Source of the DNA: Apiotrichum sp. Y4204
Taxonomy: Eukaryota; Basidiomycota; Tremellomycetes; Trichosporonales; Trichosporonaceae
Reading direction: 5' to 3'
DNA length: 64,000 nt
Assembly (NCBI GenBank): GCA_025531455.1
Contig: JAMYHL010000029.1
Location: 718,313 to 782,312 of the forward strand
Below the pieces are notes generated by a model that had not been told where the DNA came from, did no database searches, and saw nothing but the letters and a program-made list of their open reading frames with translations. Made by a program: the position numbers and the translations under genes. Positions 31,753-60,229 of the stretch are shown here, one piece after another (the stretch's first letter is position 1; every line of letters starts with the position of its first letter).

Positions 31753-32496
31753 TCAGGCAATGACGCACATGCCATGCCGGGCGTTGGCGGCGGTGTTGGC
31801 GGCAGTGGCGCTCGGCCGGAGAAGCTCGGTGCTGTGCGGGGGCGAAGACTCGGGTGTCGGCGTCGGCGCCATGAGACTATGCCGCGGCGTCGCAATATCT
31901 ACCTCGTCCGCCTCCGGTGACCGCCGCGCCGGCGTCCACTGGGGAGGTATATCTTCGCAGCTGTACATCGAGCTCGGGATGGAAGTGGAGCTTAGTCGGC
32001 GGGATATGTCCCCCTCTTCCCCCTCGAGCGCTGCCTCGCCATCACGAGCACCCTCCCCTTCTCTATCAGTAGCACTCCCCTCCCCCTCGGCTTCTACCTC
32101 TCGGCGGAGGAGCACCACCTCTTCTTCCCCGGCCTCGGCGGTGTATTCGGGTAGAGTGTGTATACTTCTTCCGCTCTCGCTGCGGCGCACGCGGGGCAGG
32201 GAGACGAGGGACACTTCCCGCGGCGGCGACGGATCCACCCTGCGGCGGCGGAAGGGCCAGTACCCGCGGCGCCCGGACTACCATCAGAACAAGCCCAAGT
32301 AGGTACGCACGTAGACACCGAGGATGACGAGGAGAACGAGCACCATGAACAGAGGGAGGTACGGCCCGGCCTTTGTGATTCCCGATTGGTCGGTCGGCGT
32401 CGGAGTCGGCGTCGGCGTCGGCGTTGCGGCGGGCCACGTCAATGTCGGTATATTTGCATCATCGGCGCGCCGGGCGTACGCCGCCAGAGGTGGCAT
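31753..32496 (-). CDS. Small single-pass membrane protein with LPEY motif (array gene 1)
   Basis: Two exons (32311-32496 and 31753-32277) separated by a 33-nt intron give 236 residues. Exon 1 codes for a short ectodomain with a (Thr-Pro)n run and one helix (LPLFMVLVLLVILGVY). Exon 2 starts with a basic patch (RRGYWPFRRRR) and carries an acidic tail with LPEYTAEAGEEEVVL. That block aligns without gaps to the genes at 45000 and 39452. The intron is phase 0 and falls exactly after the helix. An in-frame TGA just before ATG 32496, with no acceptor between them, fixes the start. An upstream frame (about 32505-32660) looks faintly coding and could mark a frameshifted longer ectodomain. The function is unknown; a ubiquitin-ligase adaptor role is inferred from the PY-type motif. 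Confidence 0.65.
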
Positions 32497-33531
32497 GGCC
32501 CCAGGTCACAACAGAAGTGGGTGGCGAAACTGCAGGCACGCCAAAGACCGGGGACGGTGTGCCGCTGATTTTGACCGCGAGTGACGGACAGAGAGTTGGA
32601 GGTGCTGAAGACGGAGTTGTGGATCCAAGATGGATTGATAGCCGAGTACAGTTAGATATGTAGGTGCTCACTGGTGATGGCGGCCGCGGAGGGCAGTCAT
32701 TGTCGTTTGACCATTGACCACCACAAGCTCGTCCATATGCCCCGGGAGGCCGGGAGTTGGGTCCGAGCGCACGCCCGCGCAATGCGATGCTTCTTCCCTC
32801 CCCCTGGATTTCTCACTGCCACACGCACCGCTACCAAAGAGCACAGATCACAGATCAGGGGATCGCGGACGCGTAGATGAACAGACAGACGGGCATTGTC
32901 AACTCTCAGAGTGCACTGCAGCACTGCGGCATTGCGGTACTGCTCAACTGTGCTGCAACGCGTACTTGCACCGGTCGACGGACAAGTCTCTCGGTGACAG
33001 GCACCGCCTCATCTGCCCCGTCTGGCCACGCACACTGGCCACTGGCGGCTGGCGACTGCCGCGGCTCTTGCTCATGTAGAGGAATGCAGCAGCGCTGTCG
33101 TGGTATCTGTGCATGCATACCCCGTGGATGAGACAGCCAGCGAAAGAGGAAAGACGCGCGCAGGCAAAGCGCGATGGCCACGAGCAACGCACGAGTTGCG
33201 TACGCCGAAAGCGGGGTCCACTGCTGGTATTCCAGATGTCCGTATTATCGAATCGTTGTTATCGAATGACCAGCCATCGTGCCATTTATAGCCTTTTGAG
33301 CATGTCTCACATAGATATCTGCTGAGAGTACGGCATCGGAGATCGGAGACTTTAGTTAGACAGGCGTTGCATGTTGTGTTTCTGATAAGATATAAGATAA
33401 CACATCGCACAGCTCATCCTTCAACCGATCCAACCATCCGTCCCACAACATTTCAACAATTCTATCCCATTATTATTATCTTCTCGATCGCGTCTCGATC
33501 CCGAATTGATTCATTAAAGCTCCTAAGACTC
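32497..33531. other. Intergenic, no supported gene
   Basis: 1.0 kb upstream of array gene 1 and downstream of array gene 2, both minus strand. It contains ACTGCAG/GCACTGC clusters near 32910-32940. No convincing gene. Confidence 0.5.
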
Positions 33532-34250
33532 CTAGAGCTCGTCCTTGCTCTCGAGCTCATGCTCGACCACGGCGACGGGGTTAGGTTTGATGGGGACGAA
33601 CGCCTCGAACGGGAGTGCATCGCTCTTCGCCTCGGCGAGCGCGCGCTCAAGGAAGCCCGACTGGGAGAGGGGCCCGGCGGGGTTGTAGTTTGGAACCGAC
33701 ATCGGCGGCGGCTGGGCGGGGACGCGGGGCGCCACCGGCCACGCGGTCCATTCACTCCACGCAGGCCAGATCCGCCACGTGGGGTAGGGGTAGCTCGCCG
33801 CGCTCGTCGCGGGCGCCATCAGACTGCAGTAGCTGTCAGCCGCTCCCGACGCTTACGGACTGGGCAAGCTCACTGGTATCCGTGGACAGGGCAGAAGATG
33901 GCGGCGGGGTGGGCGTCGCAGAGTGAGAGTATGTCGGAGATGGGGCTGGGGATAATGGCGAGTGAGGGGAGGAGGGAGACGGCGGTGGAGACTGACGCTA
34001 CGGCTGCGACGGGTGCGACTCCGGCTGCGGCGCCGCACGCTGCGCAGCGGTCAGTGAACCACCACAGCGCGGCATAGATGAGGCTGCATAGGACACAGAT
34101 GATTGCCGCGGTTGCAGCAGCGAGGTTAGTGTCCGAGAGAGAAACGACAGGGTAGCCCGTGAAAAGGGTGCCCCCCGAGATCCATGCAGCGGCTACGACC
34201 GCGACGGCGGTGACGGTCGCGAGAGCGATGGGTACGGTGATGCTCGACAT
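33532..34250 (-). CDS. Small multi-pass membrane protein (array gene 2)
   Basis: Two exons (33874-34250, 33532-33832) with a 41-nt intron give 225 residues. Three hydrophobic segments (VPIALATVTAVAVVAAAWISGG, AAATAAIICVLCSLIYAALWW, and one around PVAAVASVSTAVSLLPSLAI) precede a Trp/Pro-rich tail (PTWRIWPAWSEWTAWPVAP) containing VPNYNPAG. It differs from its neighbours in having several helices and a phase-2 intron, so it may not belong to the same family. No family recognised. An alternative acceptor 9 nt downstream keeps the frame. Confidence 0.55.
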
Positions 34251-35905
34251 TGTGAGGGTGTTGATGAAGCAAGGAGTTGAGGAAATCGAAGAGAATGGGG
34301 GGATGGGAGATGAGGCAGTGTCGCGACTAACCCACCCAGAGTCCGCGAACGCGGCCCTGCTAACCTTAATTTTGCCACCGACCACGGACGCTAGCTGGGA
34401 AGAACGGTTCCGGTTTGTATCGAGCACAATCCATAATGGCAGTAAAGTTGCAATCGGTGTGAGCGAAGTGCCGTGCTTCCGCTGATACTGTAGCCGGCTG
34501 CTAATCGCCAAGCGCGCCGATACAGTAGGCGCACAGGGCGCACAATGACAACGCGCGGTCATCAGCAACCCGCCGGTTGCTGCGCCGCTGCTCTCTCCGC
34601 TCTCCGGAACATGGGCACGCAGGACCTTCTAATCGAACATAATCGGCCACAGATCACCGCTCCAGGACGCTGCACTGTACTGTACCACGACTGTGGCCAG
34701 CGCCCTCCTCATCTCTGTACCAGGCACGGCAAGTTGCTCGAGCGGATTTGATAAACCCCCGGGATGTGCAAATCCGGTCACGAGACAACTCGACACCTCG
34801 CGGATAGTCGAGTGGCACCTCGGGTGCTGCGAGAAACCGACGGCGCTCCAAGGTCGAGGAAGTAACTGGGCAAGGTAGGCTGTAGAGGAATGGCAGGCTT
34901 TCCACCAGTGATGGATGGGAGGTACAACAGTAACGGAGGTAAACTGAAGGTCCGGGCCAGATTCCAAGGCAGCCGAAAATGCCCCGGCTCGGAACGAGTA
35001 AGGAACAAGGAGGAGAATGAAGCTTGCCAAGAAGAAAAGAGGATCATGGAGAGATATCGAGGAACCAGTACGAAGACTGGGAAATGTGAGGCGGGGCGGC
35101 AGTGAGGGAGGACAAGAAGTTCGGAGTGAGACGATGGGTGTGGAAAGGGATTGGAAATGCAGAGAGGAGGAAGAGACAAAGACAAAAGAGAGAATGGGTC
35201 GGCAGAAACATGAGGATGTCAGGTTTCTAGGCGTGATCGGCTCACGAAAGCCGCTTTGGACGTAAGCCGTCTTGCGCGTCGGTGATATCGCGTTTCGATC
35301 GGTCTGCTGTTCCCACAATCCTTCGCCTACGGCTTCCCGCAGTGATTGGAAAGGATCGATTTGACAATGCTCGGGGCCCCGTTTTCCTCCGGAGGACAAC
35401 GTCAGGCAGTCCGGGTGCATTGTCGTCGAGTGCCGCCAAGCTTGTGTACACTCAGTACATCATCTGCACGTGCAGATATTTACCTACCTCTTGAGACGTT
35501 TATTAACCGGTAACCAAGGTCTTCCAGAGACGGGAACAACACCCCGAGCGCGAAGAAGGGTGCTGCGCATGCCACTAGGCCCCACTCTTTCGTTGATCAC
35601 CTCCAGCACGATAGGTACAGTATCTGCAGCCGTGCCCCGCGGCAGCTCCACGGTATCCCGCACATCCGCCTGTGCTACGCGCCCGATCGCATGCATGCCA
35701 AGAATGCTCTACTGGGATCTTAACAACAGTTCATACATTGTCAGGTGGCAAAATTCGTACAGTAGAGATCCTTCATTGATCGTTGATAGAGTACATTTCG
35801 GGATACAATATCTGTTTACACTGACGACCTCGTTATTGACTCTCTCCTGATATATATATGCTTCTCACCACCTGTGGCGACGGCGCCGGAAAGCTGCCCA
35901 CACCT
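34251..35905. other. Intergenic, no supported gene
   Basis: 1.65 kb. A long minus-strand open frame (34629-35420) is present, but it is low-complexity and lacks an organised protein pattern, so I do not call it. The end (35850-35900) is the upstream region of the tRNA gene, with a TATATATA element. Confidence 0.5.
35851..35859 (+). promoter_or_regulatory. TATA-like element upstream of tRNA-Ile
   Basis: An alternating TATATATA tract lies about 47-55 bp before the tRNA 5' end. Upstream TATA elements aid TFIIIB placement at some fungal tRNA genes, so a role is plausible. Confidence 0.4.
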
Positions 35906-35996
35906 GGTCGCTTAGCTCAGTTGGTTAGAGCATCGTACTAATACGCAGACGCGTGTCGGTATGCGGGGGTCGGCAGTTCGAGCCTGTCAGTGATCA
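35906..35996 (+). tRNA. tRNA-Ile (anticodon AAT) with 17-nt intron
   Basis: The cloverleaf folds fully. The acceptor stem is GGTCGCT with AGTGATC (two wobble pairs), the D arm is GCTC/GAGC with loop AGTTGGTTA, and the anticodon stem is TCGTA with TGCGG, closing the loop CTAATA-A. The T arm is GGCAG-TTCGAGC-CTGTC with discriminator A. The anticodon AAT is at 35940-35942. A 17-nt intron (35944-35960) lies at the canonical 37/38 position. The A and B boxes are intact. The mature tRNA is 74 nt before CCA addition. A T5 run at 36025-36029 is the likely Pol III terminator. Confidence 0.93.
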
Positions 35997-36024
35997 GTCG
36001 CGGTCCTAGGATCGCGAGAGCACC

Positions 36025-36029
36025 TTTTT
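36025..36029 (+). terminator. Pol III terminator (T5) of tRNA-Ile
   Basis: The first run of five T on the plus strand after the tRNA lies 29 bp beyond its 3' end. Confidence 0.65.
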
Positions 36030-36155
36030 CCAAGGTGCGGAGAGAGGGGTGGATTCAGAGAGGAGACCGGGATTGGCGGCGTCGCGCGGCGTATGTTATA
36101 GAGGTGTTGGCAGCGTCAAAGTAGGCACTGGATGCAGATTGTCGTCGGTGGAGTC

Positions 36156-36371
36156 TTAAGATTGTCGTGATTCGTCGCTGCCGATCCCGGGCCAGGGGTT
36201 GACCTCGTAGTAGTATATGGTGTCCATTGACGGCGTCTCCTTCATAGGACAACGGCCGGACCAGAGATGGGCGCGGCCGCACCAGCGTTCACTGTGCGGG
36301 GCGGGTGCGGGGCGCTCGGGGCGCGGCCGGACGGGTCGGCACGCGGCGAGGGAGACGAGGGTGCTCAGCAT
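36156..36371 (-). CDS. Small orphan protein, 71 residues (array region)
   Basis: A single-exon frame of 71 residues starts 100 bp downstream of a strong TATA box (minus-strand TATAAAAG, 36471-36478), and the sequence between looks like a pyrimidine-rich leader. The protein is Arg/Pro-rich at first and ends with MDTIYYYEVNPWPG and an acidic/Ser tail. There is no helix or known domain. The promoter context is the main support. An unrecognised intron could change the protein. Confidence 0.4.
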   Translation of the reverse strand: MLSTLVSLAACRPVRPRPERPAPAPHSERWCGRAHLWSGRCPMKETPSMDTIYYYEVNPWPGIGSDESRQS

Positions 36372-37089
36372 GTAGACTGCAGTGTGAGGGGTCTGTGCGT
36401 CCGGTGAAGAGAATGTCGGTGGGGAAGAAGGGGGACGGATGCCGAGGGGATGAAGTGGGTCTGGCCGCGCCTTTTATACCACGGCCAAAGGGCAGGTGGA
36501 GGTTACGAGGAGTACATGATTTGGCGAGGCGTGTGGTGTTGCCACCGCGGTGCCCCGCCATGCCGCAAAATAAGCATACTAAGAGTGTCTTGGCCTCTGT
36601 GCCCAATACCCTGACATCGGTTGTGTCATCGAGTCATGATTGATTCTCGTATCGTTGCGAATACTCGGTGGTCTGCATAGCTGGCTGCAGCGTGCAACAA
36701 CGCAGACTGACAGCCGTCTGGAACAGATGTAAGTGCGGCGTAGGTGCGTCGGTGGCAGCTGCCACGCTCCCTGGTTCCCGAATCTATGGGCAGTATTTGG
36801 TTCCACGTTCGACATCGGCGTGGACACGGAGCACACCGATATCTAACAATTACACATTGCACCCAACTCGAGAACATTCCACCCGCAAATTGCCCACAGT
36901 GAAATACTTATGTATGTTAACCAAGGAAAAGTTTGCATCATTATACACATATAGCATCTCTAGGTGGACATATGGATACAACACGGATGGCCGAGACGGG
37001 GACGACAGGCCGCAACGGCAATGGAAGACCGCAAATCGGAGATGCCTTTGAAGAAAGGCCGAAGGGCTGGGCGTGGCCGACGGCTATGT
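36372..37089. other. Intergenic, promoter of the 36156-36371 gene
   Basis: About 720 bp containing the TATA box above and the 3' side of the next minus-strand gene. No other gene seen. Confidence 0.5.
36471..36478 (-). promoter_or_regulatory. TATA box of the small gene at 36156-36371
   Basis: TATAAAAG on the minus strand, about 100 bp before the ATG. Confidence 0.55.
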
Positions 37090-37488
37090 TTAACGCGGGA
37101 TGGACGAATACGAGGGAACTCTCGGGAGCGGGGCGACGCGGGGGACGCCGCGGGGTGCGACGCGGGCGTACGGCGGTGGCGGAATGCTCGGTGGACAGGT
37201 AGACGGCCTGCTCGGAATCGAAGGGTTGGGGCCGTGAGGGTTTACGATGATGAGAGCTTGTGGGAGCGCGGGCTGCATGGGGGGTGCGTGTGTGCAGTTC
37301 GATCGGCCACATTCGACGTCTGGCTCGCGGCGGTGGTTGGCGCTGAAGCGTCGCAGGAAACGCCATGTGGATTCGATGGAAAGCCAGATCGCGCCAGACT
37401 TGATGATAATCTGGTAGATTGTCATGATGGCGAGGGTGATTGCTGGCATGAAGATGAAGCAGAAGATGAGCAGCTTGAGCCAGTCCAT
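37090..37488 (-). CDS. Small single-pass membrane protein with PPPPY motif (array gene 3)
   Basis: A single-exon frame of 132 residues. The N-terminal helix starts almost at residue 5 (LLIFCFIFMPAITLAIMTIY), giving little or no ectodomain. An amphipathic, basic stretch (WRFLRRFSANHRR) follows, then a Cys pair, then a Pro-rich tail with PPPPYARV and a final VPSYSSIPR. PPxY is the classic ligand of WW domains such as those of Nedd4/Rsp5. Unlike its neighbours it shows no intron after the helix. A minus-strand TATAAG (37688-37693) lies about 200 bp upstream of the ATG. No family recognised. Confidence 0.6.
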   Translation of the reverse strand: MDWLKLLIFCFIFMPAITLAIMTIYQIIIKSGAIWLSIESTWRFLRRFSANHRREPDVECGRSNCTHAPPMQPALPQALIIVNPHGPNPSIPSRPSTCPPSIPPPPYARVAPRGVPRVAPLPRVPSYSSIPR

Positions 37489-39451
37489 TGCGAGTAAGTG
37501 GGTGGTGTGTGGGGATGAGAGGTGCGGCGAGGGGACAGTACAACGTGCCGAATGCCGCAAGGCGGGCCGGTGCGTGGGATATGAGTAGCAAGTGAGTGGT
37601 AGACTGCAGCTGCACTACAATATGGTGATCCGTGAGTACTCGGTAGTGAGCAGGGGTCTGAGTTGGGGGTCGCGAGTGGCGACAGATCTTATACTGTTCC
37701 TTAATGCACAACCAAGCGCGCGTTCAGCGAAGACATCAAGGTGGCGAGCGCGAAGCGCAGACAAAGAGTTGTGGTACACTGCACAAAGCAGTAGCCGCCA
37801 TGACGCTAGAGGATTTTTGCTGTTTTCCCTCTTGCATTTGCTCCGATGGGCACGGCGAAAAGCGATGCGAGCAGAGGACTGCAATGTCAACAAACGAAAT
37901 GTCGCGGTTAGAAGATAACAGCGCGTGAATCGATGCAGCCAATAGCGCGCGATGCTCGATACGACACTGTGCTCGTGGGTCGCGTGACTACTCGACTGTG
38001 GCCAGTAGATGATGGCGATGAGCTCCGGCCGCAACAACGATTTGGTTATCGCTTCGGCGTTGGCCGTGGGCTAGTGTGGAGCGACGCACGTTTGTGAAGA
38101 TAAGATGTCAGAGGGACCATCCACTGTTCATGGAACAATACGCCTCCTTTGCCGGTGACGCACAGGTACAGGATCCGCAGCAGGGGGATCAGCAGAGGGC
38201 CACAGCGCAGGAACGCGCCTGGGCGTAGGTAGATCTGCAGGTGTTCCAAACCAGGAATAGTCAAGGCAGAACACGAGAGGAAGCACTACCAGCCCACAGG
38301 AGCCAAGACAGTGTCGGTCCTTCAGGCACGCGAGGCACGCGGGGCGCCACCCAGCTACATATAACCTGTCTTTCACTCGGAGCCGAGACCTTCTTGCCGA
38401 CGCTGCCGAAGCCTTAGATACTGTACACACGCCGCCACCCACTCTCGCCGTCGCCGTCACCGTCGGAGGCTTATCTCTCTATTTTGAACCCTCACATGAC
38501 AGATCCAACCAATGGGATGCCGCGATGTAGGCCCGTGACGCGCGGAAAGGAGCCGCAGACAAATCCTCGGAAGTGCGGGTTTGTCTATCAAGAGCCTTGG
38601 ATACGAGTTTGGCACCGCACCGCCGGAGGTCGCCGGGGTCAGCTGGCAATCACGGTTAAGGCGCGGCTATCTGCCGTCAGCTCCCCTGCTGTCTGTGAGG
38701 TCTGATCCCCTGCTGTCTGAGAGTGAGGTCAGTGGCGGATGTGCCGTTTTCGTGCCTGTACAGCTGTACAGGATGCGAGGTGGGACCTGTGGCCTGTGGA
38801 GCGGTGGAACTGGAGCATCCTCTGAATAACTCGAGAATGAGCAGCCGTGTTCGGGAGCGTCCGATGGAGCAACAGAGGACCGTCAGGTGTGAGTGGGGAG
38901 GCGAGGAATTGAGGGGTGTTCAACGGGGATAAGCCATGAGACTGGTGGCGAAAGGAGCTGCGTGAGGAGAAGGAATTGCGGGACCCAAGGTACCTCGGCA
39001 TGCTATCCAGTCGAGGGCTCTCGCCACCCATGTTCTGACAAGTGCCAAGTGGCGATTGCAACCGAATAGGGACTCGATCAAATCCAGATCATCAGAATCC
39101 ACAAAGTGGCGATCCATGCAACCTTGCAGCAAAACGCACTGGTTCACAATCTGCATTGACAACACGATTGTACAGTACACTATGTTACACCGGAATATGG
39201 TACAAGATACACAAAGACTTCTGACTTCTGATTTCCATTGCATTGCGAGTCGTACAGTACATTCGGTGGGTCGTCGGATTACGTCGAATTAGGGCCGTTC
39301 AGGATGGAGAATACGATTCGTGACGAGTCATAGCGGATCTGAGGATCGAATATCGATTGAGGGTTGTTTGCGGACGGGGGTTCGCGGCAAACAAGTCAAA
39401 GTAGTAGACTTCGCAGCAAGTCGAGAGTAGTTGTCACTGACTCTAACTCGA
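37489..39451. other. Intergenic, no supported gene
   Basis: 2.0 kb. It contains the promoter of array gene 3 (minus TATAAG at 37688-37693) and a perfect 18-bp palindrome at 38755-38772. Open frames are scattered and unconvincing. Confidence 0.5.
38755..38772. repeat. Perfect 18-bp palindrome
   Basis: CCTGTACAGCTGTACAGG equals its own reverse complement. It sits in non-coding sequence and could be a dimer-binding site or a chance feature. Confidence 0.9.
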
Positions 39452-39781
39452 CTACAGCTGGAACGAGGACTTGACGGAGCGCGGCGAAAGGTCGTACGGC
39501 TCATAGGCGGGAGGAGGAGCCGACGAGTCGTTGATCTGGAGCTTGGCAAGCTCGATCGCAAGCTTGACTGTCTTGGGGTCCGCGGACGAGGGGAGGGTGA
39601 CCTCATGCTCGTTGGGCGTGGTGGTGTAGAGGGGAAGAGTGGCCTGACGAGGGCGGCGTAGCTTGCGGCGCTCGCTGCGCACCTTCTTGGTGCTGGAGGT
39701 GGAGAAGATCTGACAATTAGGACGGGGCTGACTTGGCCGAGAGTCCCTCCTACTTACGAGGTTCCAGATGTTGCCCTTCAT
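39452..39781 (-). CDS. Small basic protein with LPLY and PPPAY motifs (array gene 4)
   Basis: Exons 39758-39781 and 39452-39709 give 93 residues. The 48-nt intron has consensus ends (GTAAGT, CTAAT branch, CAG) but is a multiple of three with no stop, so a read-through form would be 16 residues longer. There is no clear helix. The N-terminus is strongly basic (KKVRSERRKLRRPRQ), followed by LPLYTTTPNEHEVTL and then APPPAYEPYDLSP. Both motif blocks recur in order in the gene at 45000-45414, so the two are paralogues. A minus-strand TATATAAG lies at 39957-39965. The function is unknown; WW-domain binding is inferred. Confidence 0.65.
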   Translation of the reverse strand: MKGNIWNLVSRRDSRPSQPRPNCQIFSTSSTKKVRSERRKLRRPRQATLPLYTTTPNEHEVTLPSSADPKTVKLAIELAKLQINDSSAPPPAYEPYDLSPRSVKSSFQL

Positions 39782-39956
39782 GGTGTGCAAGAGTGGTTAC
39801 GCTGGGGGTGGTTGTGGTGTTAGGCTGTGGTGGTGCTTCTCTGTGAGTACGGTGCAGAGATAGCTTGGAGATGGCAATAGATGGTGTCTCGATATCAAGA
39901 GCAGTAGTAGCAGTGGAGCTGGCTGATGGATGTCGACAAGTTCCATCTGGTGTCTC

Positions 39957-39965
39957 CTTATATAT
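39957..39965 (-). promoter_or_regulatory. TATA box of array gene 4
   Basis: ATATATAAG on the minus strand, about 180 bp before the ATG at 39781. Confidence 0.5.
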
Positions 39966-44997: not shown

Positions 44998-45414
44998 TTA
45001 TAACACCCGGCTCTTCTTGCCTAACGGATGGACGGGACAGCTGACGGCCGCCTGGCAAGTGGCGCACCCGTCCTCCTTTGTGGGCGAGTGGAGAAACTCG
45101 ATGCGCTCCGCGATGGCCGAGTAGATCGGTGTAGCCCCTTGGGGGGAGTAGAGCGTGTCGTACGCGGGCGGACCGGCGGGAGACCGGGCGCGGCGCGCCG
45201 CGGCTCCCGCGTCGGCCAGGAGGTTCATGCATGCCGGGTCGAGTGACTTTGAGCCTAGCGCGACCTCGTCCGCTGCCGCCGTGGCAGTGTACAGGGGCAG
45301 GGGGCGGAGGTGCCGGTGCTTGCGCTTTGGGCGTGTCTTGTCTTTTAGGACGGGCTGGGGTTAGGACAATAGGGCGGAGGGACGTACCGAGGGGAAAGTG
45401 GCCATCATGGACAT
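44998..45414 (-). CDS. Small basic protein with LPLY and PPAY motifs (array gene 5)
   Basis: Exons 45388-45414 and 44998-45354 give 127 residues. The 33-nt phase-0 intron (45355-45387) is required because reading through meets a stop, and it has a CTAAC branch site. There is no helix. A basic start (KDKTRPKRKHRHLR) precedes LPLYTATAAADEVAL and later GPPAYDTLYSP. Both blocks align in order with array gene 4 at 39452-39781, whose first exon is also only eight or nine codons. The extra C-terminus holds a Cys/His cluster (DGCATCQAAVSCPVHP). Alternative starts lie at 45408 and 45405. The function is unknown; WW-domain binding is inferred. Confidence 0.65.
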
Positions 45415-47914: not shown

Positions 47915-48992
47915 CTAGCTCGCGCCGCTGGCCGAGACGGATCTAATGTTGTAGCCCCACACGATGCCCTTGCTTTCCGGGCTGGGGGAGGTGCTCCGCA
48001 CGGGTGCGCTGACATGGCGGTGGCGGCCGGATTTGCGGAGACCATCGGCGCGCAGCTTCCATGCGAGGGCCATCTCGCCACCGAGGCAGCCGGGCAGGTT
48101 GCAGTTGCACGGGACGACGGCGTCATACGCGCGGTCGAGCTCTCCGCCGGGGCAGAAGGGGTCGGCGCAAGCACAGCGCCTGTCGGCAAGACCGTGCGGG
48201 AGCGTGGAGCGGATGAGGAGTGTGGGGGGTTTGGATGGCCGGCGCTTTGTGCGTTTTAAGCTCTGACCGTCGTCTTCTGCGGCCGACTCATACTCTGAAT
48301 CCGAGTCGCCATCTTCGGATGGCTGATAGACTGAACCTTCAGAGGCAAGACTAGGTTTGGAGGAACCGGTCGAGGCGGTCAGGGATGGGAGACTTGGCTG
48401 GTGTTCGAGAACTGGGGCTGGGAAGGACGCTGGCGAGGGGAACACGCCACTCGAGCACTGGGCCGGGGATATTTGCGAAGGTGAGCGCGGTGGGGGACGG
48501 AGTGGGGTGGTGAACTGTGGTGTCTCGGATGAATTCAAGTCGACAAGCTTGTCGTCGGATGGGAAGACAAATGAGAGGCAGTTTCCGCTGCATTTGCACT
48601 TTTTCTTCTTCATGCGCAGCTCGTGCAGGTCGCCGATCATGGCCTCGAGTTCTGGGTCCTCGCCGTCCGTTTCGGGCAAGTACTCTGGGAGTGTCGAGGC
48701 CGTGCCGACCGACGAGTGCAGGCTCTTGGTGCTGTTCGATGCATCGGAGATGTTGGAGCCGTCAGAGCTGCCGCTGACGGTGCGGCGATGGGGAGATTCT
48801 GGGCGAGATGGGAGGGAAGGCTGGCCGTCGCACCCGGCTAGCGGTAGGGGACTGGCGACGCGCCGGAGAACACTGCTCCAAGGAGGCTGAGGTGAGTCAG
48901 CGTCCACAAGGCCTCATTGTTCCGAGTCGCGAGTCGATCGCGTCGATGTGTTCGCCGTGCATCGCGCAATCGTGTCACGAGTCACGTACCAT
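47915..48992 (-). CDS. Cys-rich protein with LPEY motif; ATG-only first exon (array gene 6)
   Basis: The long exon (47915-48886) has no ATG near its start and begins directly after a good acceptor (CTGACTCACCTCAG). The only fitting start is a CACCATG immediately followed by GTACGT (ATG 48990-48992), which makes exon 1 a single codon and the protein 324 residues. The N-terminal third is Ser-rich with STLPEYLPETDGED. A Lys/Cys knot follows (KKKKCKCSGNC), then a Ser/Pro stretch, an acidic patch, and a C-terminal set of Cys (CACADPFCPGG, CNCNLPGC) that looks metal-binding. It may be a nuclear or cytosolic regulator. No family recognised. A TATA-like TATAAAAG (minus, about 49497) would imply a 500-nt leader with an upstream reading frame. 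Confidence 0.6.
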
Positions 48993-51900: not shown

Positions 51901-52516
51901 ATGCACAATCAACATGATCAACATACAAGGCTCAGCAATCACAACGACTGCTATGCGCTGACGGAGGCGCGCCCACTACCTCGAGCCTCCAAGCAGCAGA
52001 GTCATGCACGATCATGCAGTCAACGGCCAATGTCACATGCCATGGCCATCAGCAATGTCGTGTGGTAAGCATCTTCCACACCGTCGCACACCAGTACACC
52101 GTTGTGTCATTTATGCGTGGTCGGGCGACGGGTGAGGCCATGGAGCACGCACATGCGACATATGATGCATGATGCACAGCCCATTCCCCGTCGATCTCGC
52201 GATTCTCGGAGTGCCGGCACTGTGATCACGCGGAGACGGCTGACTTGCTGACGACGCGCGCGACGCGCCCACAACGGCGGTGCCTGCATCGGTGCATCCA
52301 TGATCGTGGAGACATGCAGCACCGCATTTCGAGTGCTTACCCCTCGGACGCGGTGCGCGACAAGCTATGCCTGAATCCGCCTGAAGCTTCCGAGCTCCCG
52401 AGAGATTGCGAGAGATAAGCTTGGCCGACACAGCTATCCGTTTCGGTACCTTTTATTAATGCTCCGCCCTCCGTTTCATCTGTCCGTGCACGCACAGCGA
52501 ACACGCTGCACGCACT

Positions 52517-52558
52517 GCACATGCTGCACATACTGCACATACTGCACATACTGCACAG
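52517..52558 (+). repeat. Tandem CTGCACATA repeat just upstream of a TATA box
   Basis: Four near-identical copies of a 9-bp unit end about 16 bp before the TATA box of array gene 7. The position suggests a cluster of binding sites for one factor. Confidence 0.85.
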
Positions 52559-52573
52559 GTGTGAGGGGACAGG

Positions 52574-52580
52574 TATATAG
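52574..52580 (+). promoter_or_regulatory. TATA box of array gene 7
   Basis: TATATAG, 121 bp before the ATG at 52695. Confidence 0.65.
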
Positions 52581-52694
52581 CTTGACACTCTTGATGGCAT
52601 CTGCTCAATCCCCAACTCGACTCATCTGACACCAACTAGACCAACAGTCACCAACTAGACCAACTGTCACCATCTAACACTTTTATCCACCACC

Positions 52695-53361
52695 ATGGCG
52701 CAGATCCAACCCCCGTCCATATTCGCCCAGCTTCCCTACCCCACCATTAGGAGCTCCGCATCCACTGGGCGGTCGTGGCCTGGTCCATCGCCCTCGGATG
52801 ACGGGCCTCCCAAGGAGTGGATCATTGGCGTCGCGATCGGCTGCAGTGTCTTCGCTCTCGGTATCATTATCTCTGTCATTGCTTGTGTGAGTAGCCTGGC
52901 GGCTTTGGGAAGATGCCGGACAACGTGTCCCTTCTCCAATGCCTTGAAATAGCTATAATGTACTGACTCCCCAGGTTGTTACACGGAGACGCCGCCAGCA
53001 GAGGCGCGACCGCATGAACGCAACCATGGCCTCTGCCATGGCAGCTGGCGCGCGCCCAATGGGACAGCCGTCAATGTACGTGGCCCCCACCACGTACGCT
53101 CCCCGCACGACGGTGACGGCTCCAGGCGCAACGGCGACCGCTACCGCAGTGGCGGAGCCGCCCCCGGCGTACAATCCTGGCGCCGAGCCCCCGACCACGC
53201 ACTTGGGCGGGTACAGCAGCCACCTCAACGACGACCCGTACAGCAGCACCCGCGACCTCCTCAACCACTCGGCGGCATCTACTTCCACTTCTGTCGATGC
53301 GAGCGGCAATGAGTCTCAGAAGCTGTTCGTCACGAATAGCGGCGCCGACACAAAGTCATAA
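52695..53361 (+). CDS. Single-pass membrane protein with PPPAY motif (array gene 7)
   Basis: Exons 52695-52886 and 52975-53361 give 192 residues. Exon 1 codes for a ~44-residue Ser/Pro ectodomain ending in DDGPPKEW and a helix (IIGVAIGCSVFALGIIISVIAC). The phase-0 intron starts right there. Exon 2 begins with a basic stop-transfer patch (VVTRRRRQQRRDR) and carries AEPPPAYNPGAEPP, then Ser/Thr-rich sequence. There is no signal peptide, so the helix would act as the anchor with the N-terminus outside (inference from the positive-inside rule). The ectodomain/helix boundary GPPKEWIIGVAIG resembles GPPQTWVIVVAVM in the next gene. No known family; the PPxY suggests recruitment of a WW-domain ubiquitin ligase. 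Confidence 0.75.
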
Positions 53362-54287
53362 GCCCCCACCGGGACGTCTTGCCTGTCAACGCGTCAACTC
53401 GCGAGGCCCTGTACTTTACAGCATATCCCCTAGCGTTCCAGTGGTGTGGAGTACGGGATTTGGCCGGGATCCCTAGATTCTCTCAGCACCGCGCGCGATG
53501 GAGGTAGGGGCCGCCGAGTGAGAGCCCTCGGTACCTCACCCACCTGTCGCCAACTTTGTTTGCTTTTAGTTCGCCAGGCGACGACAGCTTATCGACATCA
53601 GGCCAGCCTAATTTTAGCCAGCGTCATAGGTATGCTGGAACATCATAGCATACACACTCCTATAGATCCACTGTAGCGCAAGTCATGTGAAAGCCGCCAT
53701 GTGGTGGCCCGTAACCATACAATGGGCAGGTGTGGAGTGAAAATAACCTCGCAAGAGCCAGAGTTAGTTGCCCTGGTCGGTCGCTCGGTGTGCACGTTTG
53801 TAGCCTAAATCGACCAGGTCCTCGTGTGACCGCGAACCTGTGTTACAGATTGATTTTATAAAGGTGTGCCCCGCTCCCCAGGTGTTCAGGCGTTTCTCCC
53901 CCGCCTGCCCTCGTCAGGTCCCGGATGCCCCACTCCCCCTTCCCCTCTAAGCTCTTGACTCTGTTTAGCATGCAATATAAGCTTTTGTTGCCGCTCGACA
54001 TATGGGCTGCGAGCACAGCAACAGCGTACCAGCTCTCCAGGCCTCGTGGGCACTGTGCCTGTCCAGCTTGTCTAACCTGTCTTGGCAGCCGCCACAACTG
54101 TACCTGTTTGATCTGCTACAGAGCGACTGGCTGGTGATTCACTCAGTGAGCAGCAGGCGGTCGACGCCAAGGGGCGAGGGACGTATATAGAACTGGCAAT
54201 GGACAGGTCAAAACTGGGTTGGGACCCACACTTTTGCGAACGTACACACTCACATACTTACGCGGCACCACCACTCGCCACTCCACC
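53362..54287. other. Intergenic
   Basis: 0.9 kb between array genes 7 and 8, with the TATA box of gene 8 at its right end. No gene seen. Confidence 0.5.
54184..54190 (+). promoter_or_regulatory. TATA box of array gene 8
   Basis: TATATAG, about 104 bp before the ATG at 54288. Confidence 0.65.
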
Positions 54288-54863
54288 ATGACCTCCATCG
54301 CACATTCGGCACCAACAAGGCTGTATCCGACCAGCACATTCAGGTCGCTCCCGTCCATCGACCCGAACTGGGGGCCGAGCCGCCCCGGCAACGACCGGGG
54401 TGGGCCCCCCCAGACGTGGGTCATCGTCGTCGCTGTCATGGGCGGGCTGTTTGGCATCGGCCTTATTGTCATTCTGTTGAGCTATGTAAGTTGAGAGTGA
54501 GAGTGAAAGGAATGGGGAGATGGGAGAGATGTCCGGGCTCCCTGGGCCGTGTCCCAGGCGACGTTTTGCAGTATCAATCTTGCTGACATGCAGTGCGGAA
54601 AGGACCAGCGGCGGAGGGAATACAGGAGCTACAACTACGAGCAGTACGGCTTCCCGACGACGGGAGCCGCGCCGCCGCCATACTCGCGCTTTGACGAGGA
54701 GGCTGGCGTCCTCCGCCCGCCGGTCTCGCACCCCCGCCACCACCAGATACACAGCGCCGCGCACAACATGCACATGCACAACCACCATCTCGCGACGCAC
54801 CATTCTGCGCACCACACCGCACACCATACCGCCATGTCACATTCGGGCGCCGGAGGGTGTTGA
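54288..54863 (+). CDS. Single-pass membrane protein with PPPY motif and His-rich tail (array gene 8)
   Basis: Exons 54288-54485 and 54594-54863 give 155 residues. Exon 1 holds a ~45-residue ectodomain ending in DRGGPPQTW and a helix (VIVVAVMGGLFGIGLIVILLSY). A phase-0 intron follows at once. Exon 2 begins CGKDQRRREYR, has GAAPPPYSRFDEEAG, and ends in a tail with about 15 His in 36 residues (HHQIHSAAHNMHMHNHH and onward). The architecture is the same as array gene 7 and the GPPxxW junction is shared, so a tandem duplication is likely. The His-rich tail suggests metal-ion binding. Transporter or metal-response adaptors would fit, but no function is established. Confidence 0.75.
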
Positions 54864-56495
54864 GCTGCGTGTAGGAGAGGCATTGACTGTATCCATATCT
54901 TGTACCATGTCACTTATCTCGGGCTCTCTGTTCTTGGCGCCGCATTTGAGGACGCGACGGAGACAATGGACAATGGATGTGGGAAATGGCCGATTCAGGG
55001 ATCGGCGGGGCATGCGCCATCCGGATTGATTGTGATCACCGCAATGATCCATCCACACTAGACGGAACTAGCTGATCGCAGCGGCTAATGAAAGCAGGTG
55101 CAATGGGATGGAAGAGCACAACGGGGCTGATAGGATGTAACGAGCTCGCCAAGTTGTCACAAGCAGCCCATCCCAGATGCACGGCGCATCAAACGGACTC
55201 AATCCCCCATCCCCAGCTCCGCAAATTCCTATTGGTGGAGGCTTCGTTTCCGACGCCGTCCGCCCAGTGAGAGGGGCTGCGGCCGAACTGCCAACACGGC
55301 CAACTCGGTGAGCGCCGGCATCTCCCCGGCCCCACCAACGGCCCCACCAACCTTCTTTCTCGTGAGGTCCATGTGCGTAACCCTGTCAGAACTCACCTAT
55401 GCCTGCGTGGTGTGTGGTGTGTGTTGCTAGTCGCGTTTTGCGTGATGCGCGATACCGCTGTCCGTCGATCCAACCCCCACGCGCACCGGGCCCGCGTCAA
55501 GACGCGAATGCTGGGTGTGAGGTCGCGTAGATGGATGGATCACGTCACTGGCGTACGCGCGTACGCGCCACATACCGCTGATCGTGCTGATCCGATCCTC
55601 TTCCAAGACCTTGACAGTGGCTTCGCGCTGATCTGTGTGGATTCTGGATCCTCATATTGCAGATTGTGTCATTCCGCAGCACCATTCCCCAGCCAGAATC
55701 CGCAGGCATCCAGCAGGGTTTCACTTCTGTTCAGCGGACTTTCGGACCCCGTCGACACAACACCACCGCGACCATTGAAGGATGGTCTCTCGGTTGGCAC
55801 TGCCGGCGACGTATTCAACGTCATGTTGTCCTAGTGGGCGACTGATAACCACTGGGCTTCGCGGCTCGACTGGAAGAACAGACGTTTCACATTGCCTCAA
55901 ACAAACCGTGCGCTGGAAACAGGAGGCACTGCTTCTGCTGCTTTGTCGTTGTCTTCCGACCATGCGTGCTGTCCCCGGTTGTACGGGTTCAGATATTGCT
56001 CTCCCGGAATGTCATCTGGACTTTAGCAAATGTCGCACTTATCGATAAATGAGAAGCTCCCTGTGCGCAGATGCTCCACCTGAAACTTGGATCCGAACAG
56101 GAATCAGTCATTACACCGCCGAACGGAAGCTGCCATTACAGACCGATTGCAATCGAGCCATTCGAATCGTGAGCCTCTGGCAGAAGACTGAAGGCGCCTC
56201 AATCATCCAGCTACAGTACATGTGCCGTAATGAATTGCAGCGGCCCGCCGTGTGGCTGCATCATCTGACCGGGAATCGAAGTAAGGTTGTTAAGGTTTGC
56301 GTTCGCAAGCGCTGTGTGGCTGCAGTGCGAGCATCGCCATTATTGTTGCGGTTGCGGGAGTTGCAGAGGTCATGTAGATGTAGCTGTAGCTGCAACTACA
56401 CATCTCTGTATTGACGCGTGTGCGTGAGTCGATGATACCTGGATATATAGCCAAGGTGCGAGTTGGACCGGAGACAGATAGAAGCGCCAACAGCC
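54864..56495. other. Intergenic
   Basis: 1.6 kb. It contains a 16-bp perfect palindrome GCGTACGCGCGTACGC near 55554-55569 and the TATA box of array gene 9 at 56444-56450. The plus-strand frames at 55373-56048 are unconvincing. Confidence 0.5.
56444..56450 (+). promoter_or_regulatory. TATA box of array gene 9
   Basis: TATATAG, 46-52 bp before the ATG at 56496, so the leader must be very short. Confidence 0.55.
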
Positions 56496-57078
56496 ATGTC
56501 AGTCCTCTTCACCTTTAAAGTCACCCACACCTATGTTATACCCACCACCGGCACCACAACACAGACGTACTCGTACTGGTCCTACCTTCCCACAGCTACA
56601 GCAACTTCCAGATACCAGGAAGACTCTAAGGCCTGGCAGAAATCAACCGAAAAGATCGCGGGCGGGATTGTCGGGGGCCTTGCATTCCTGGTCCTCCTCC
56701 TCGGTGTGGTATACTACGTGAGTCCGCAGCGTCAATGTCCGCTGACACTGAGGTTAATAGGAAGAGCCGGCCGCCCAACACCGCCTCGCTGCCCCTCCAT
56801 GCCAACCAGAACCGGAACCCGCGCCGGCCGAGGGACATTGACGTAGTCATGCGTGCCGCGGACCGTCTACCATTCCGGGCGTTATCGCTGTAAATCACGC
56901 TGAGGGGAGCAATCCTTACGATTATGGCGGGAATGCAGTCGCGTCGAGTAGTCGGGCTGGGCCGTCAAGTGTCGCTGGGCCGTCTAGTGCCGTCGCTGGG
57001 CCGTCGAACTACGCCGGCGCGTCGAATGTAGCTGCGCCATCGAATCGCGCCGACGAAGACATCCCTACGATTTACTGA
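56496..57078 (+). CDS. Single-pass membrane protein, tail with reading-frame break (array gene 9)
   Basis: Exon 1 (56496-56717) is clear: a Thr/Tyr-rich ectodomain (VTHTYVIPTTGTTTQTYSYWSY) and a helix (IAGGIVGGLAFLVLLLGVVYY), followed by a phase-0 GTGAGT. The tail is uncertain. With an AAG acceptor, exon 2 starts at 56765, reads SRPPNTASLPLHANQNRNPR and stops at 56893. A second coding-like stretch with SSVAGPSS repeats, ending DEDIPTIY at 57076-57078, lies in another frame. Joining them needs either a second intron (56842-56903, GTAGTC...GAG, both ends weak) or a frameshift. The alternative acceptor TAG at 56760 gives a tail that stops after 26 residues. The gene may be decaying, or assembly may have an indel. 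I give the outer span. Confidence 0.5.
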
Positions 57079-57181
57079 TTTCATCAAGGCCGTTATAGTG
57101 AAGGTCTGCTAATAGTACCGTCCGTAGACGCTTAGCCGACTAGATGTATGTACAGTATATTCAAAGAATAAACTAGAAGTG

Positions 57182-57526
57182 CTATGTCACGGCCTCAATG
57201 GTTCGTTCATAAAGCTCAGATCGCTCGGTTGACGAGCTGATAGTGAGGTGTTTTGCAGAGACGTTACGACGTTGCCTCATGACGACTGTGACACCGCCCC
57301 CCACGTAAGCTGGTAGTTTCTGCGGCTTCTTCTCGGCTCTTCTCAACAGTGTTTGTATCCGAGTAGCCAGTCTGCAAGGAAATGTGGTCCCGAGTCTGGA
57401 ACCTGTGGATGTGAGCCATAAAGGCACGATCTGGGAGGTTCTTGGCTGGAGCAGTGTCGCAATACTCGCCACAGTCGGCTCGCGAGGATACCCAGCAGGC
57501 AGCGCCGTATCAAATCCTGTGCACAT
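57182..57526 (-). CDS. Possible array protein with LPAY motif (array gene 10)
   Basis: A minus-strand frame of up to 114 residues converges on array gene 9. Its C-terminal half is basic (LLRRAEKKPQK) followed by LPAYVGGGVTVVMRQRR and a Ser/Glu tail, like the start of cytosolic tails in neighbouring genes with LPAY. The first half looks less like coding sequence, and the true start or a first exon with a helix may lie elsewhere; no TATA box is obvious. It is reported because of the motif and its position. Confidence 0.35.
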   Translation of the reverse strand: MCTGFDTALPAGYPREPTVASIATLLQPRTSQIVPLWLTSTGSRLGTTFPCRLATRIQTLLRRAEKKPQKLPAYVGGGVTVVMRQRRNVSAKHLTISSSTERSELYERTIEAVT

Positions 57527-58016
57527 GGATCGGGGCTATCTGGGATCTGGCAAAATGGTGCTCATGCCATGACTTCCGAACTATTTGGACGGCTGCCAAA
57601 GTGTACCCTTCATTCGGTTGCTGATTTAAAGTTTGAAGCTGTCCTGCTGTCTCCGTGTTTCATCAGCGCCCTGCCCAGCATGACCGCATCTCCGGATCTC
57701 TTGATCCTCAGGATCGAACGCTAAAAGTGTCCGAAGCCCGACGCGTTCGGAGTGGATGTGCGCACAGCATGGATCGCCTGACGTGATGCTGTGAAGTGAG
57801 AGTGATCTGCGAGCGGTAAAGTATGGTTAATGCCTGACGCGTTGGCGGGGGGTTGAGTGAAGTGGTGGATGGTATAAGATGAGACGGTTCTTCATCACTT
57901 CCAGAACACAATCCTTCCGATAGACATCTAGAACCACATCGACCTGGACACGCATACACACACACGCTTCACGCATAGACACTCAACACCAGACACTCCC
58001 AACACACATCATCAAC
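57527..58016. other. Intergenic, promoter of array gene 11
   Basis: About 490 bp with TATAAG at 57873-57878 and a CA-rich leader (ACACACAC-type, 57945-58015). No gene seen. Confidence 0.5.
57873..57878 (+). promoter_or_regulatory. TATA box of array gene 11
   Basis: TATAAG, about 140 bp before the ATG at 58017, with a CA-rich leader between. Confidence 0.5.
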
Positions 58017-58371
58017 ATGGCATCCCAAACCGTCATCATCATCATTCTCTCGGTGGTCATCTTCGTGATGGGCATCTGTAACATCACCTACTTTGTAAGT
58101 TGCCCGCCGACTATACATGCTTCGTAGGCTCACATCCCAGCTCTTCAAGCGCTTCCCCATGAGCACCGCCGCTGCCCCGCCCACGCTTCGGGCCCCCGTC
58201 CTCCCCGCCCCGGCAACGGCCCCATCTTCTGTCCCCGCCACAAGCTCCGCATCGGTGGCCCCAGTCACCCCCACGCCTGCAATTGCCCCTAAGCATGATG
58301 GCCTGCCGGCGTACGACGTCGAAGAGGCGAGCATTGGCCTGAACCCGCCGACTGGTGACCGCAAGGCATGA
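58017..58371 (+). CDS. Short single-pass membrane protein with LPAY motif (array gene 11)
   Basis: Exons 58017-58094 and 58141-58371 give 102 residues. Exon 1 is almost only a helix (VIIIILSVVIFVMGICNITYF), with the N-terminus just four residues long. The phase-0, 46-nt intron directly follows. Exon 2 begins LFKRFPM, then an Ala/Pro/Thr-rich linker and KHDGLPAYDVEEASIGLNPP near the C-terminus. This block aligns with RLPAYSGVDEATIGVTPPPP of the gene at 59773, so the two are paralogues. No ectodomain is left for ligand binding, so a membrane-anchored peptide presenting the LPxY motif is the simplest reading (inference). Confidence 0.75.
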
Positions 58372-58703
58372 TGCCACAACACCCGTGATCTGCGATACCT
58401 CGGGGAGAGACAGTGTGATACCCACGACTAGAGCACTAGATAGATACCCACAATCATATTTACCATTGACACGCGTCAAATCCTCGACTTAGTGGACGGT
58501 TCGTGGCTTGGGCGGAGTCACAGTAGATGCCGAGTATTGTTTTTAGCATATGCACGTATTGTAGACCGTGTCTCGGCCTCGTGCCTTTTCGTACGCGATC
58601 TAGGGCTGTGCCGTTACTCTGCTTCGGCAGTTGGAGCTCCACTGACAAGGCTTAAACCTCGCCGAGATTACCCCCGTGCAGTCTCTTGGCCGTTTGCGGG
58701 ATT

Positions 58704-58710
58704 TATAAAA
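58704..58710 (+). promoter_or_regulatory. TATA box of array gene 12
   Basis: TATAAAA, 94-100 bp before the ATG at 58804. Confidence 0.65.
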
Positions 58711-58759
58711 AGACAGGGGCAGTGTCTTGGATGATGTTGTATACCCCCCATCCCCCACG

Positions 58760-58790
58760 ACCGACGACCGACAACCGACGACCGACGACA
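58760..58790 (+). repeat. Tandem CGACCGA-type repeat in leader
   Basis: Four to five imperfect copies of a 6-7-bp GACCGAC unit between the TATA box and ATG of array gene 12. Confidence 0.75.
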
Positions 58791-58803
58791 GTCACCATAC
58801 ACG

Positions 58804-59198
58804 ATGAGCCCAATCCCGCCATCCACACCGCACATCTTGTCCAAAAAATCACACGCCCCGGGCAACCCACACTCCCCAGACCGCCCAGACTTGCCCGACA
58901 CCAACCCACCCGTCATCACGTGGGGTCCGCTCTTCCTGTATATCTCCCTCATCTGTATTTTCGTGTACGCGAAACATGTGAGTACTTGTAGAGAACGATT
59001 CTGTCGCGAATACCCGTGACCCCTAGGATGTAATACTAACAGTCCCAGAAATACGACGTCCGCAGAAAAAGCGACCGTCTCGCTGCGAGCCAACATCTGA
59101 GCTACGAGAGCGTCGATCAGCGGACGGCCGGGCGGAAACCGACGCCGCACTCGCCAGAGTCTGGGCCAGCTGATGCCAGTCGCCACCCTGGGCACTAG
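58804..59198 (+). CDS. Single-pass membrane protein with LSYESVD motif (array gene 12)
   Basis: Exons 58804-58977 and 59049-59198 give 107 residues. Exon 1 codes for a ~38-residue Pro/Ser/His-rich ectodomain and a helix (WGPLFLYISLICIFVYAKH). The intron is phase 0 and directly after the helix. Exon 2 begins KYDVRRKSDR and contains HLSYESVDQRTAG, a degenerate match to the LPAY...VDEATIG block of genes 11 and 13. The PY proline is replaced by Ser, so WW-domain binding may be lost. It lies head-to-tail with genes 11 and 13, 430-570 bp apart, which supports tandem duplication. Confidence 0.7.
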
Positions 59199-59772
59199 AT
59201 GTGGCGGTAGTGCCCATCAGCTGTGTACGATACGATAGCGGGGTAATGATGATGTGTCCTGTACTGATTATGCATAGACCTCTCAAGCCGGTCGAGGATA
59301 TGGCGTCATGGCTGCTGTTGCCGTGTGAAGGCCAGTGGGAGTGGGATGGTGCAGAGGCGGTGAGCACAGGGGAGGAGGTGGTTCTCTCGAGCCGGGATTA
59401 CGCTTCTTCCTGAGCGTTGACGTTTCGGGGCATCTCCTGTTGGGCTCCACACTGACTGACCGTCTCCACATTGACTGTCTCGGAGATCGGAGACTTTAGG
59501 CCATACATATCTGCTGTGCAGATTCCGAGATAAGCTCTGTGGCCGACGCCGATCCAAACAGGTGGCACAGCATGATCCATCTGATCGGCCGAATGTGCCA
59601 CCTTTCGGCTGTCGTTATTGCAGTACAACGCCTTTGCTGGATGCCGTGTCGTGGGCACACAGGAGTGCTTGGACGATATATGATCGTGAGTAATGCCTCC
59701 TTCTTATACAGCTCAGCAACACATTCGACACCCGTCACCCACAGAAACACCAACCTACCATTTTCCTCCATC
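59199..59772. other. Intergenic, promoter of array gene 13
   Basis: About 570 bp with two possible TATA elements (TATAT at 59677-59681 and TATACA at 59705-59710). No gene seen. Confidence 0.5.
59705..59710 (+). promoter_or_regulatory. Candidate TATA box of array gene 13
   Basis: TATACA lies 63 bp before the ATG. A second candidate, TATAT at 59677, lies 92-96 bp before it. Confidence 0.4.
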
Positions 59773-60229
59773 ATGCTCTGGCTCATTATTCTCTGCGTTG
59801 CAATGGCAGTTTTCTTCGTTACCGCCATGTTTGCCTACTATGTGAGTAGCATCGGGTTCAGAAAGTGGCTAGCTTTACCGACCCACATGCAATCTTTCCT
59901 CCAGCAAATCTCTCCGATACTGATAACGTCAGGGACACAAACGATTCAGTCGACCCCGTCCCCGCTATATTGGCGAGAAGGGTATCCGCCCGATCTCACC
60001 GGAACGTCTGCCAGCCTACTCGGGTGTCGACGAGGCCACTATCGGCGTGACCCCACCGCCGCCGGTCCACTCGTGGCATCATACCCACGATACCCACAGC
60101 TCATTACACGGCACCCACGACACACACGGCCATTACGTGGCTGGGTGCTCCAGCGACACTGGTGGCGGCTTCTCGGGCGGAGATGCCGGTGGTAGCTGCG
60201 GGGGAGGCGCTGGAGGCTCGTCCAGTTGA
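59773..60229 (+). CDS. Short single-pass membrane protein with LPAY motif and His/Gly-rich tail (array gene 13)
   Basis: Exons 59773-59841 and 59933-60229 give 121 residues. Exon 1 is a bare helix (MLWLIILCVAMAVFFVTAMF) with no ectodomain. The intron is phase 0 and directly follows the helix. Exon 2 starts GHKRFSRPRPR, then RLPAYSGVDEATIGVTPPPP, then a His-rich stretch with HTHDTHSSLHGTHDTHGHY, and ends Gly/Ser-rich with two Cys. It is the paralogue of array gene 11 and also shares a His-rich tail with array gene 8. A membrane-tethered LPxY peptide with possible metal-binding tail is inferred; no family known. Confidence 0.75.

Follow-up and report, generated by a model that had tools for sequence, protein, structure and literature searches.

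What is encoded by the crowd of small genes near one end of a contig of the basidiomycete Apiotrichum sp. Y4204, and why do so many of the predicted proteins carry short tyrosine motifs of the kind offered to WW domains? We analyzed a 64-kb stretch (the window), which is the terminal 64 kb of contig C105 (positions 718313-782312 of 782312) in a genome of 48.9 Mb and 182 contigs. An earlier note on this DNA had described about a dozen small membrane-anchored or basic proteins with PY motifs (PPxY or LPxY, together [LP]PxY) and had read them as one diversified array of adaptors for the ubiquitin ligase Rsp5. The count was right: 13 small genes could be modeled by hand between 31.7 and 60.2 kb from reading frames, splice sites, and alignment to a sister copy (Table 1). 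Membrane anchoring, judged by hydropathy, fits nine of the 13. On the sequence evidence set out below, we regard the locus as a real cluster of small PY-rich genes and a plausible adaptor locus.

Are the PY motifs more numerous than protein composition would give? The 13 models contain 11 [LP]PxY motifs in nine genes. VPNY in g33.5 would bring in a tenth gene, and it matters because VPEY is described as the Rsp5-binding motif of yeast Rcr1/2 (PMC5578492). Shuffles of each protein predict 1.25 genes with [LP]PxY versus the nine observed (P ~2.5e-7), and for PPxY alone 0.79 versus five (P ~6e-4), gene-level values that count paralogues as independent and are uncorrected for the choice of window. 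The clustering claimed in the earlier note is supported. By length, the cluster holds 11 motifs in 2045 amino acids (aa) versus 5 in 6648 aa for the longest frames of 13 chosen loci (P ~7e-7, again with paralogues taken as independent and the choice of window uncorrected), a control that is not random because three of its five motifs lie in HECT-gene frames (L001-L003, two of them sister copies) and the other two in loci recovered by a query for transmembrane (TM) proteins with PY motifs. Eleven long frames elsewhere within the window gave two motifs. In baker's yeast, PPxY is reported in ~4% of proteins and LPxY in ~7% (PMC1557994).

The edges of the cluster were examined with a codon-score filter, which recovered 8 of the 11 cluster motifs and another at 41.9 kb that the sister copy does not retain. 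In window 1-31 kb it returned two [LP]PxY, one within a 331-aa frame and the other within a 295-aa frame. In 25 kb of the sister contig (C166:105001-130000, overlapping the right end of the window) it returned three: the 448-aa frame of the gene at window 61.8 kb accounts for two of them and a frame of 197 aa for the third. The sister contig was also used to look for a rightward extension of the cluster, and with this filter no additional small PY gene was conspicuous there.

The sister copy of the region lies on the minus strand of contig C166 and is 88-92% identical across window 17.1-59.3 kb, 74-76% at 60.0-61.1 kb, and 88% at 61.4-64.0 kb. Between 59312 and 61388, identity drops from ~88% to ~75%, and the sister is ~3.4 kb longer between the points matching window 61120 and 61388. 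Because many of the genes we sought (three HECT genes, all eight WW places, and a Bsd2 homologue) form near-equal-score pairs and the region itself has this sister copy, the genome looks like that of a hybrid or an otherwise doubled strain. Hybrids are reportedly on record in the Trichosporonales.

How do the genes compare between the two subgenomes? Ratios of nonsynonymous to synonymous change (dN/dS) were obtained by approximate counting on the spliced models against the sister. For the nine models free of frame differences, taken together (g37.1, g56.5, g58.8, and g59.8 left out), the ratio is 0.22, indicating purifying selection on conserved frames. The tails of g37.1, g56.5, and g58.8 differ in frame between the subgenomes. 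From these ratios and frame differences, most models are judged to be real genes and some to be relaxed; selection on g58.0 alone is not established, because its ratio rests on 15 changes. A codon scan listed the frames of most models with a synonymous excess, except g37.1 and the PY exon of g58.0, and was permissive, listing dozens of frames that include antisense and probably noncoding ones. Protein divergence from the sister ranges from ~2% (g39.5) to about one third (the aligned tail of g59.8), while the two Bsd2/NDFIP homologues of this genome (L048 and L049) are one residue apart across 444-aa frames. By comparison with this pair, at least part of the cluster is fast-evolving.

The motifs themselves have largely persisted. 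The sister keeps 10 of the 11 in frame, two of them changed at the free x position alone. The best case of a motif kept on a diverged background is g59.8: little of its N-terminal half survives in the sister, and LP[A/P]YS-VDEATIG-TPPPPVHSWHHTH stays. Eleven of the 12 motifs named in the earlier note are found in gene models; the remaining one, a minus-strand LPAY at 57.2 kb, was discarded as a cluster member, as it lies in no supported gene and the sister has frame-breaking indels there and no motif.

Do the 13 genes form one family? Profile comparison covered 28 pairs of eight models (six as two-row alignments and two as single sequences, with five models left out), and four pairs reached E < 1e-3: g52.7 with g54.3 (E 7.4e-8, probability 94.5%), g54.3 with g59.8 (E 5e-6, 86.2%), g39.5 with g45.0 (E 5.5e-5, 66.3%), and g58.0 with g59.8, which have the tail in common (E 2.3e-4, 44.1%). 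The same four lead in shuffled local alignment of all 78 pairs of the 13 models, with z of 12.6, 11.4, 7.8, and 5.9, values that TM and histidine-rich composition can inflate. Furthermore, five plus-strand genes (52.7, 54.3, 58.0, 58.8, and 59.8 kb) have in common a phase-0 intron located where the TM helix ends; g56.5, a doubtful model whose acceptor was picked by phase, fits this pattern only with the chosen acceptor. Given the profile links, the alignment scores, and the shared intron, the cluster probably contains a TM group of four genes (52.7, 54.3, 58.0, and 59.8), possibly six, and a soluble pair (39.5 and 45.0), and no significant link joined the group to the pair in the profile comparison. 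Part of the cluster was probably built by local duplication. A single diversified family is not supported by these comparisons, from which two groups emerge; the other links are not significant, and the array of the earlier note is too uniform a picture. Next in the shuffled alignment came g37.1 paired with g59.8 (z 3.9) and g37.1 paired with g58.0 (z 3.6), both set aside because the aligned stretches are proline-rich. In genome searches, sister copies and cluster neighbors aside, g45.0, g52.7, and g59.8 gave no match under E 0.01 (best 0.06, 0.017, and 0.56). With g54.3 as query, g52.7 was found at E 0.002 and the sister copy of g52.7 at E 9e-4, and the reverse search found g54.3 at only E 0.12.

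Is there a partner for these motifs? The fungus has its own Rsp5: a frame of 721 aa combines three WW domains with a HECT domain, and its best PDB match is yeast RSP5. Of 16 WW matches in the genome, two Rsp5 copies account for six, three apiece, and the other ten, at other places, form five equal-score pairs. Given those ten, the PY motifs might bind a WW protein other than Rsp5, but we consider this highly improbable: the two Rsp5 copies supply the six top-scoring WW matches, and membrane PY tails of yeast are described as binding Rsp5 (PMC9105457, PMC2171029). We put at roughly 0.5 the probability that several members of the cluster recruit Rsp5 through their PY tails, in a PY-dependent way.

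Several results weigh against this recruitment. Four of the 13 models have no [LP]PxY, and the motif of the 37.1-kb gene is out of frame in the sister. Retention elsewhere is evidence of persistence rather than of special constraint on the motif cores, because so close a sister would be expected to keep many triplets anyway. A Pfam scan (ten proteins at E <= 1, g31.8 as its exon-2 frame; the other three at E <= 0.1, g56.5 as its first exon; HMMER filters remove most matches above E 0.1) returned no row for PF12273 (RCR), the family of Rcr1/Rcr2, in any of the 13 models, and none for PF10176 (NEDD4_Bsd2/NDFIP) or for the domains of Sna/Pmp3, Ear1/Ssh4 (SPRY), and Tre1/2 (protease-associated), g31.8 and g56.5 being covered in part. 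Genome-wide, PF12273 reached at best 21.4 bits, below the cut-off of 27.8, at loci outside the cluster, and PF10176 gave two matches at E <= 1, on C109 and C46, also outside it. No exact word of 7-9 bases was shared by the 500 bp upstream of the 13 starts above the level of random stretches. A TM frame outside the cluster (L025/L026) beats g52.7 in the search with g54.3 (E 2.1e-4, 30% identity). Two larger frames, L025 (368 aa, APPPSYDPTSD, matched by g54.3) and L041 (714 aa, LPPAYGDIYG, matched by g52.7), share a TM segment and a PPxY tail, and for this reason the predicted single-TM, PY-tailed design extends beyond the cluster. Finally, with kin groups collapsed the excess shrinks to five of nine lineages with [LP]PxY (P ~0.0015), or four of eight without the 37.1-kb gene (P ~0.007), both uncorrected for window choice.

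Much of this bears on the idea that two unrelated orphan-gene duplications happen to be neighbors in a region of small, fast-evolving genes, that the motifs of the other members are chance products of proline-rich tails, and that the cluster has no common function. The four significant profile pairs do form two separate groups, the chance of [LP]PxY from composition alone is 4-14% per protein, and the missing promoter word, the stray motif at 57.2 kb, and the outside match of g54.3, at least as good as that to g52.7, all fit it. Even so, we think it unlikely: the excess of motifs persists after collapse, 10 of 11 are retained in the sister, and the flanks gave few, in longer frames.

Which known proteins come nearest? 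By analogy of design, the closest are Rcr1/Rcr2 and Commissureless, neither of them named in the earlier note. Rcr1/Rcr2 are described as transmembrane Rsp5 adaptors with PPSY and VPEY that act on surface proteins and whose structure has been likened to Commissureless (PMC9105457, PMC5578492). The likeness lies in a small TM protein with a PY tail, as in the cluster's TM members; the plan of one TM helix and a C-terminal PY motif is predicted for g52.7, g54.3, g58.0, and g59.8. In Saccharomyces cerevisiae, Rcr1/Rcr2 are not known to belong to a comparable local array of about a dozen genes. In this genome, the top PF12273 place (L046) was rejected, as its listed frames contain no convincing RCR gene. 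Commissureless of Drosophila is described as a Nedd4 substrate adaptor, a short TM protein with LPxY followed by acidic residues, and GLPAYDVEEA in g58.0 resembles its GLPSYDEAL (PMC5578492). The same source classes CYYR1 with Commissureless and Rcr among short TM proteins, and for g52.7 the Pfam scan gave a weak likeness to CYYR1, at E 0.012 and 16.5 bits versus a cut-off of 31. However, Commissureless, PRRG4, CYYR1, and the Shisa-type proteins are animal proteins, and kinship to the cluster is limited to the motif and this sub-cut-off match. Bsd2 is described as a membrane PY adaptor of Rsp5 (PMC9105457), but the Bsd2/NDFIP domain is unlike the cluster proteins, and this genome's homologue, with PPSYQTAL, occurs in two copies outside the cluster. 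Sna3, of a conserved family, is described as a small membrane protein with two TM segments whose C-terminal PPAY binds the WW domains of Rsp5 (PMC2171029), whereas TM members of the cluster mostly have one and differ in sequence. The non-arrestin PY adaptors listed for yeast are Bsd2, Tre1-2, Rcr1-2, Ear1, Ssh4, Hua1, Sna3, and Rup1 (PMC9105457). No title or abstract opening in our literature search reports a cluster of this kind, which is not proof of absence. The adaptor reading of the earlier note is partly supported: it gains an Rsp5 with three WW domains and a known design of TM segments with PPxY, LPxY, or VPxY tails, but it lacks adaptor Pfam matches and must accommodate PY-tailed TM proteins elsewhere.

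How might the cluster work? We propose that this locus of small, fast-evolving genes, some probably local duplicates and presumably expressed, encodes short proteins whose PPxY, LPxY, or VPxY motifs would be offered to WW domains of the Rsp5 that the fungus itself makes. The TM members (52.7, 54.3, 58.0, 59.8, and probably 31.8 and 37.1) would have a short first part, one TM helix, and a mostly basic stretch; a cytosolic C-terminal tail would then be expected from the positive-inside rule. This tail would dock Rsp5 at the membrane, while selection of a neighboring membrane protein as cargo for ubiquitination and sorting to the vacuole would fall to the TM or N-terminal part. In a possible division of labor, the soluble pair, whose members each contain two PY motifs, would act as a bridge to Rsp5 or compete for it. 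A PY motif in the tail of a membrane protein is described as a route that brings Rsp5/Nedd4 to membranes, as in Sna3 (PMC2171029), Rcr1/2 and Bsd2 (PMC9105457), and Commissureless.

Alternatively, the small membrane proteins may be substrates of Rsp5 instead of adaptors: short-lived proteins of the surface or endosomes, such as sensors or proteins linked to the cell wall, with control acting on their own ubiquitination and delivery to the vacuole. PY tails are not confined to the cluster, since L025 and L041 carry PPxY tails in larger TM frames; exon 1 of g56.5 has a weak Mid2 likeness in Pfam (E 0.0095, below cut-off); and yeast Sna3 is described as itself ubiquitylated by Rsp5 (PMC2171029). 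Yet an adaptor role is described for both Sna3 and Rcr1 (PMC9105457), and g39.5 and g45.0, being soluble, do not themselves have to be sorted, so that we find the substrate explanation rather doubtful. The fuller form of the adaptor reading is speculative, and we think it improbable as a whole: a local, fast-turning set of membrane and soluble Rsp5 adaptors, locally duplicated, with changing membrane parts that would choose cargo and retained PY tails that would dock the ligase. This pattern is best seen in g59.8, because its N-terminal half is largely replaced between the subgenomes and its PY tail is kept.

Rsp5/Nedd4 adaptors determine which surface proteins a cell removes. If the fuller form of the adaptor reading is true, one genomic region would re-tune surface-protein degradation. 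A locus with several fast-changing kinds of small PY protein would be a simple system for the origin of adaptors and their acquisition of cargo. The tail peptides are short enough for direct testing against WW domains.

Table 1. Hand-built models of the 13 small genes, with window coordinates, predicted products, and state of the sister copy (kb values give the place of the motif)
Gene	Position	Strand	Exons	Predicted product	dN/dS	Sister copy
g31.8	31753..32496	-	32309-32496, 31753-32239 (join requires GC donor, uncertain)	224 aa, TM protein; one hydrophobic segment; tail motif LPEYTAEAGEEE	0.32	LPEY retained (31.8 kb)
g33.5	33532..34250	-	33874-34250, 33532-33823; phase-2 intron	222 aa; three hydrophobic segments; VPNYNPAG	0.35	VPNY retained; in-frame 9-bp indel
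g36.2	36156..36371	-		71 aa; no TM, no PY motif	0.11	stop placed elsewhere
g37.1	37090..37488	-		132 aa; TM at N-terminus; tail PPPPYARV	0.25 (16 changes)	2-bp frame change upstream of PPPPY (37.2 kb); motif open in window, out of frame in sister
g39.5	39452..39781	-	39758-39781, 39452-39709; phase-0 intron	93 aa, soluble, basic; LPLYT and PPPAYEPY	0.10	cores of both motifs retained: LPLY and PPAY (as PPTY) (39.5 kb)
g45.0	44998..45405	-	45388-45405, 44998-45354; phase-0 intron	124 aa, soluble, basic; LPLYT and GPPAYDTLY	0.08	both retained: LPLY and PPAY (45.0 kb)
g48.0	47915..48992	-	48990-48992, 47915-48886	324 aa; no TM; LPEYLPETDGED	0.12	LPEY retained (48.7 kb)
g52.7	52695..53361	+	52695-52886, 52975-53361	192 aa: short N-terminus, TM, phase-0 intron, RRRRQQRR, PPPAYNPG	0.14	PPAY retained (53.2 kb)
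g54.3	54288..54863	+	54288-54485, 54594-54863	155 aa: short N-terminus, TM, phase-0 intron, PPPYSRFDEEAG, His-rich end	0.26	PPPY retained (54.7 kb)
g56.5	56496..57076	+		TM protein without [LP]PxY	0.41	tail frame differs
g58.0	58017..58371	+	58017-58094, 58141-58371	102 aa: N-terminal TM, phase-0 intron, GLPAYDVEEASIGLNPP	0.41 (15 changes)	LPAY retained (58.3 kb)
g58.8	58804..59198	+	58804-58977, 59049-59198	107 aa: TM, phase-0 intron; no PxY; HLSYESVDQ where motif might stand	0.42	end out of step with sister frame
g59.8	59773..60229	+	59773-59841, 59933-60229	121 aa: N-terminal TM, phase-0 intron, LPAYSGVDEATIGVTPPPP, His/Gly-rich end	0.51	LPAY retained as LPPY (60.0 kb); reads LPPYSSVDEATIGLTPPPP

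Other features lie within or beside the cluster. Inside the cluster, a multi-exon gene at window 41.9-44.3 kb (plus strand) resembles a flavin monooxygenase by a motif; a Pfam scan of one of its frames gave no match. A tRNA at window 35905-35997 was called Ser (act) by a program in bacterial mode and by eye may carry an intron and a different anticodon. The left neighbor of the cluster, at 28.2-31.3 kb (plus strand), has a TM7S3/TM198 domain (E 6.5e-25) and a long final frame that is without a Pfam match and strongly conserved. The same 18-base word occurs at window 33338-33355 and 59482-59499, 26 kb apart and close to both cluster ends, where 0.03 matches would be expected allowing up to 3 mismatches. 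Adjoining g59.8 in a poorly conserved stretch, a short frame at 60.40-60.63 kb (minus strand) resembles, by eye, a small secreted protein with a signal-like start.

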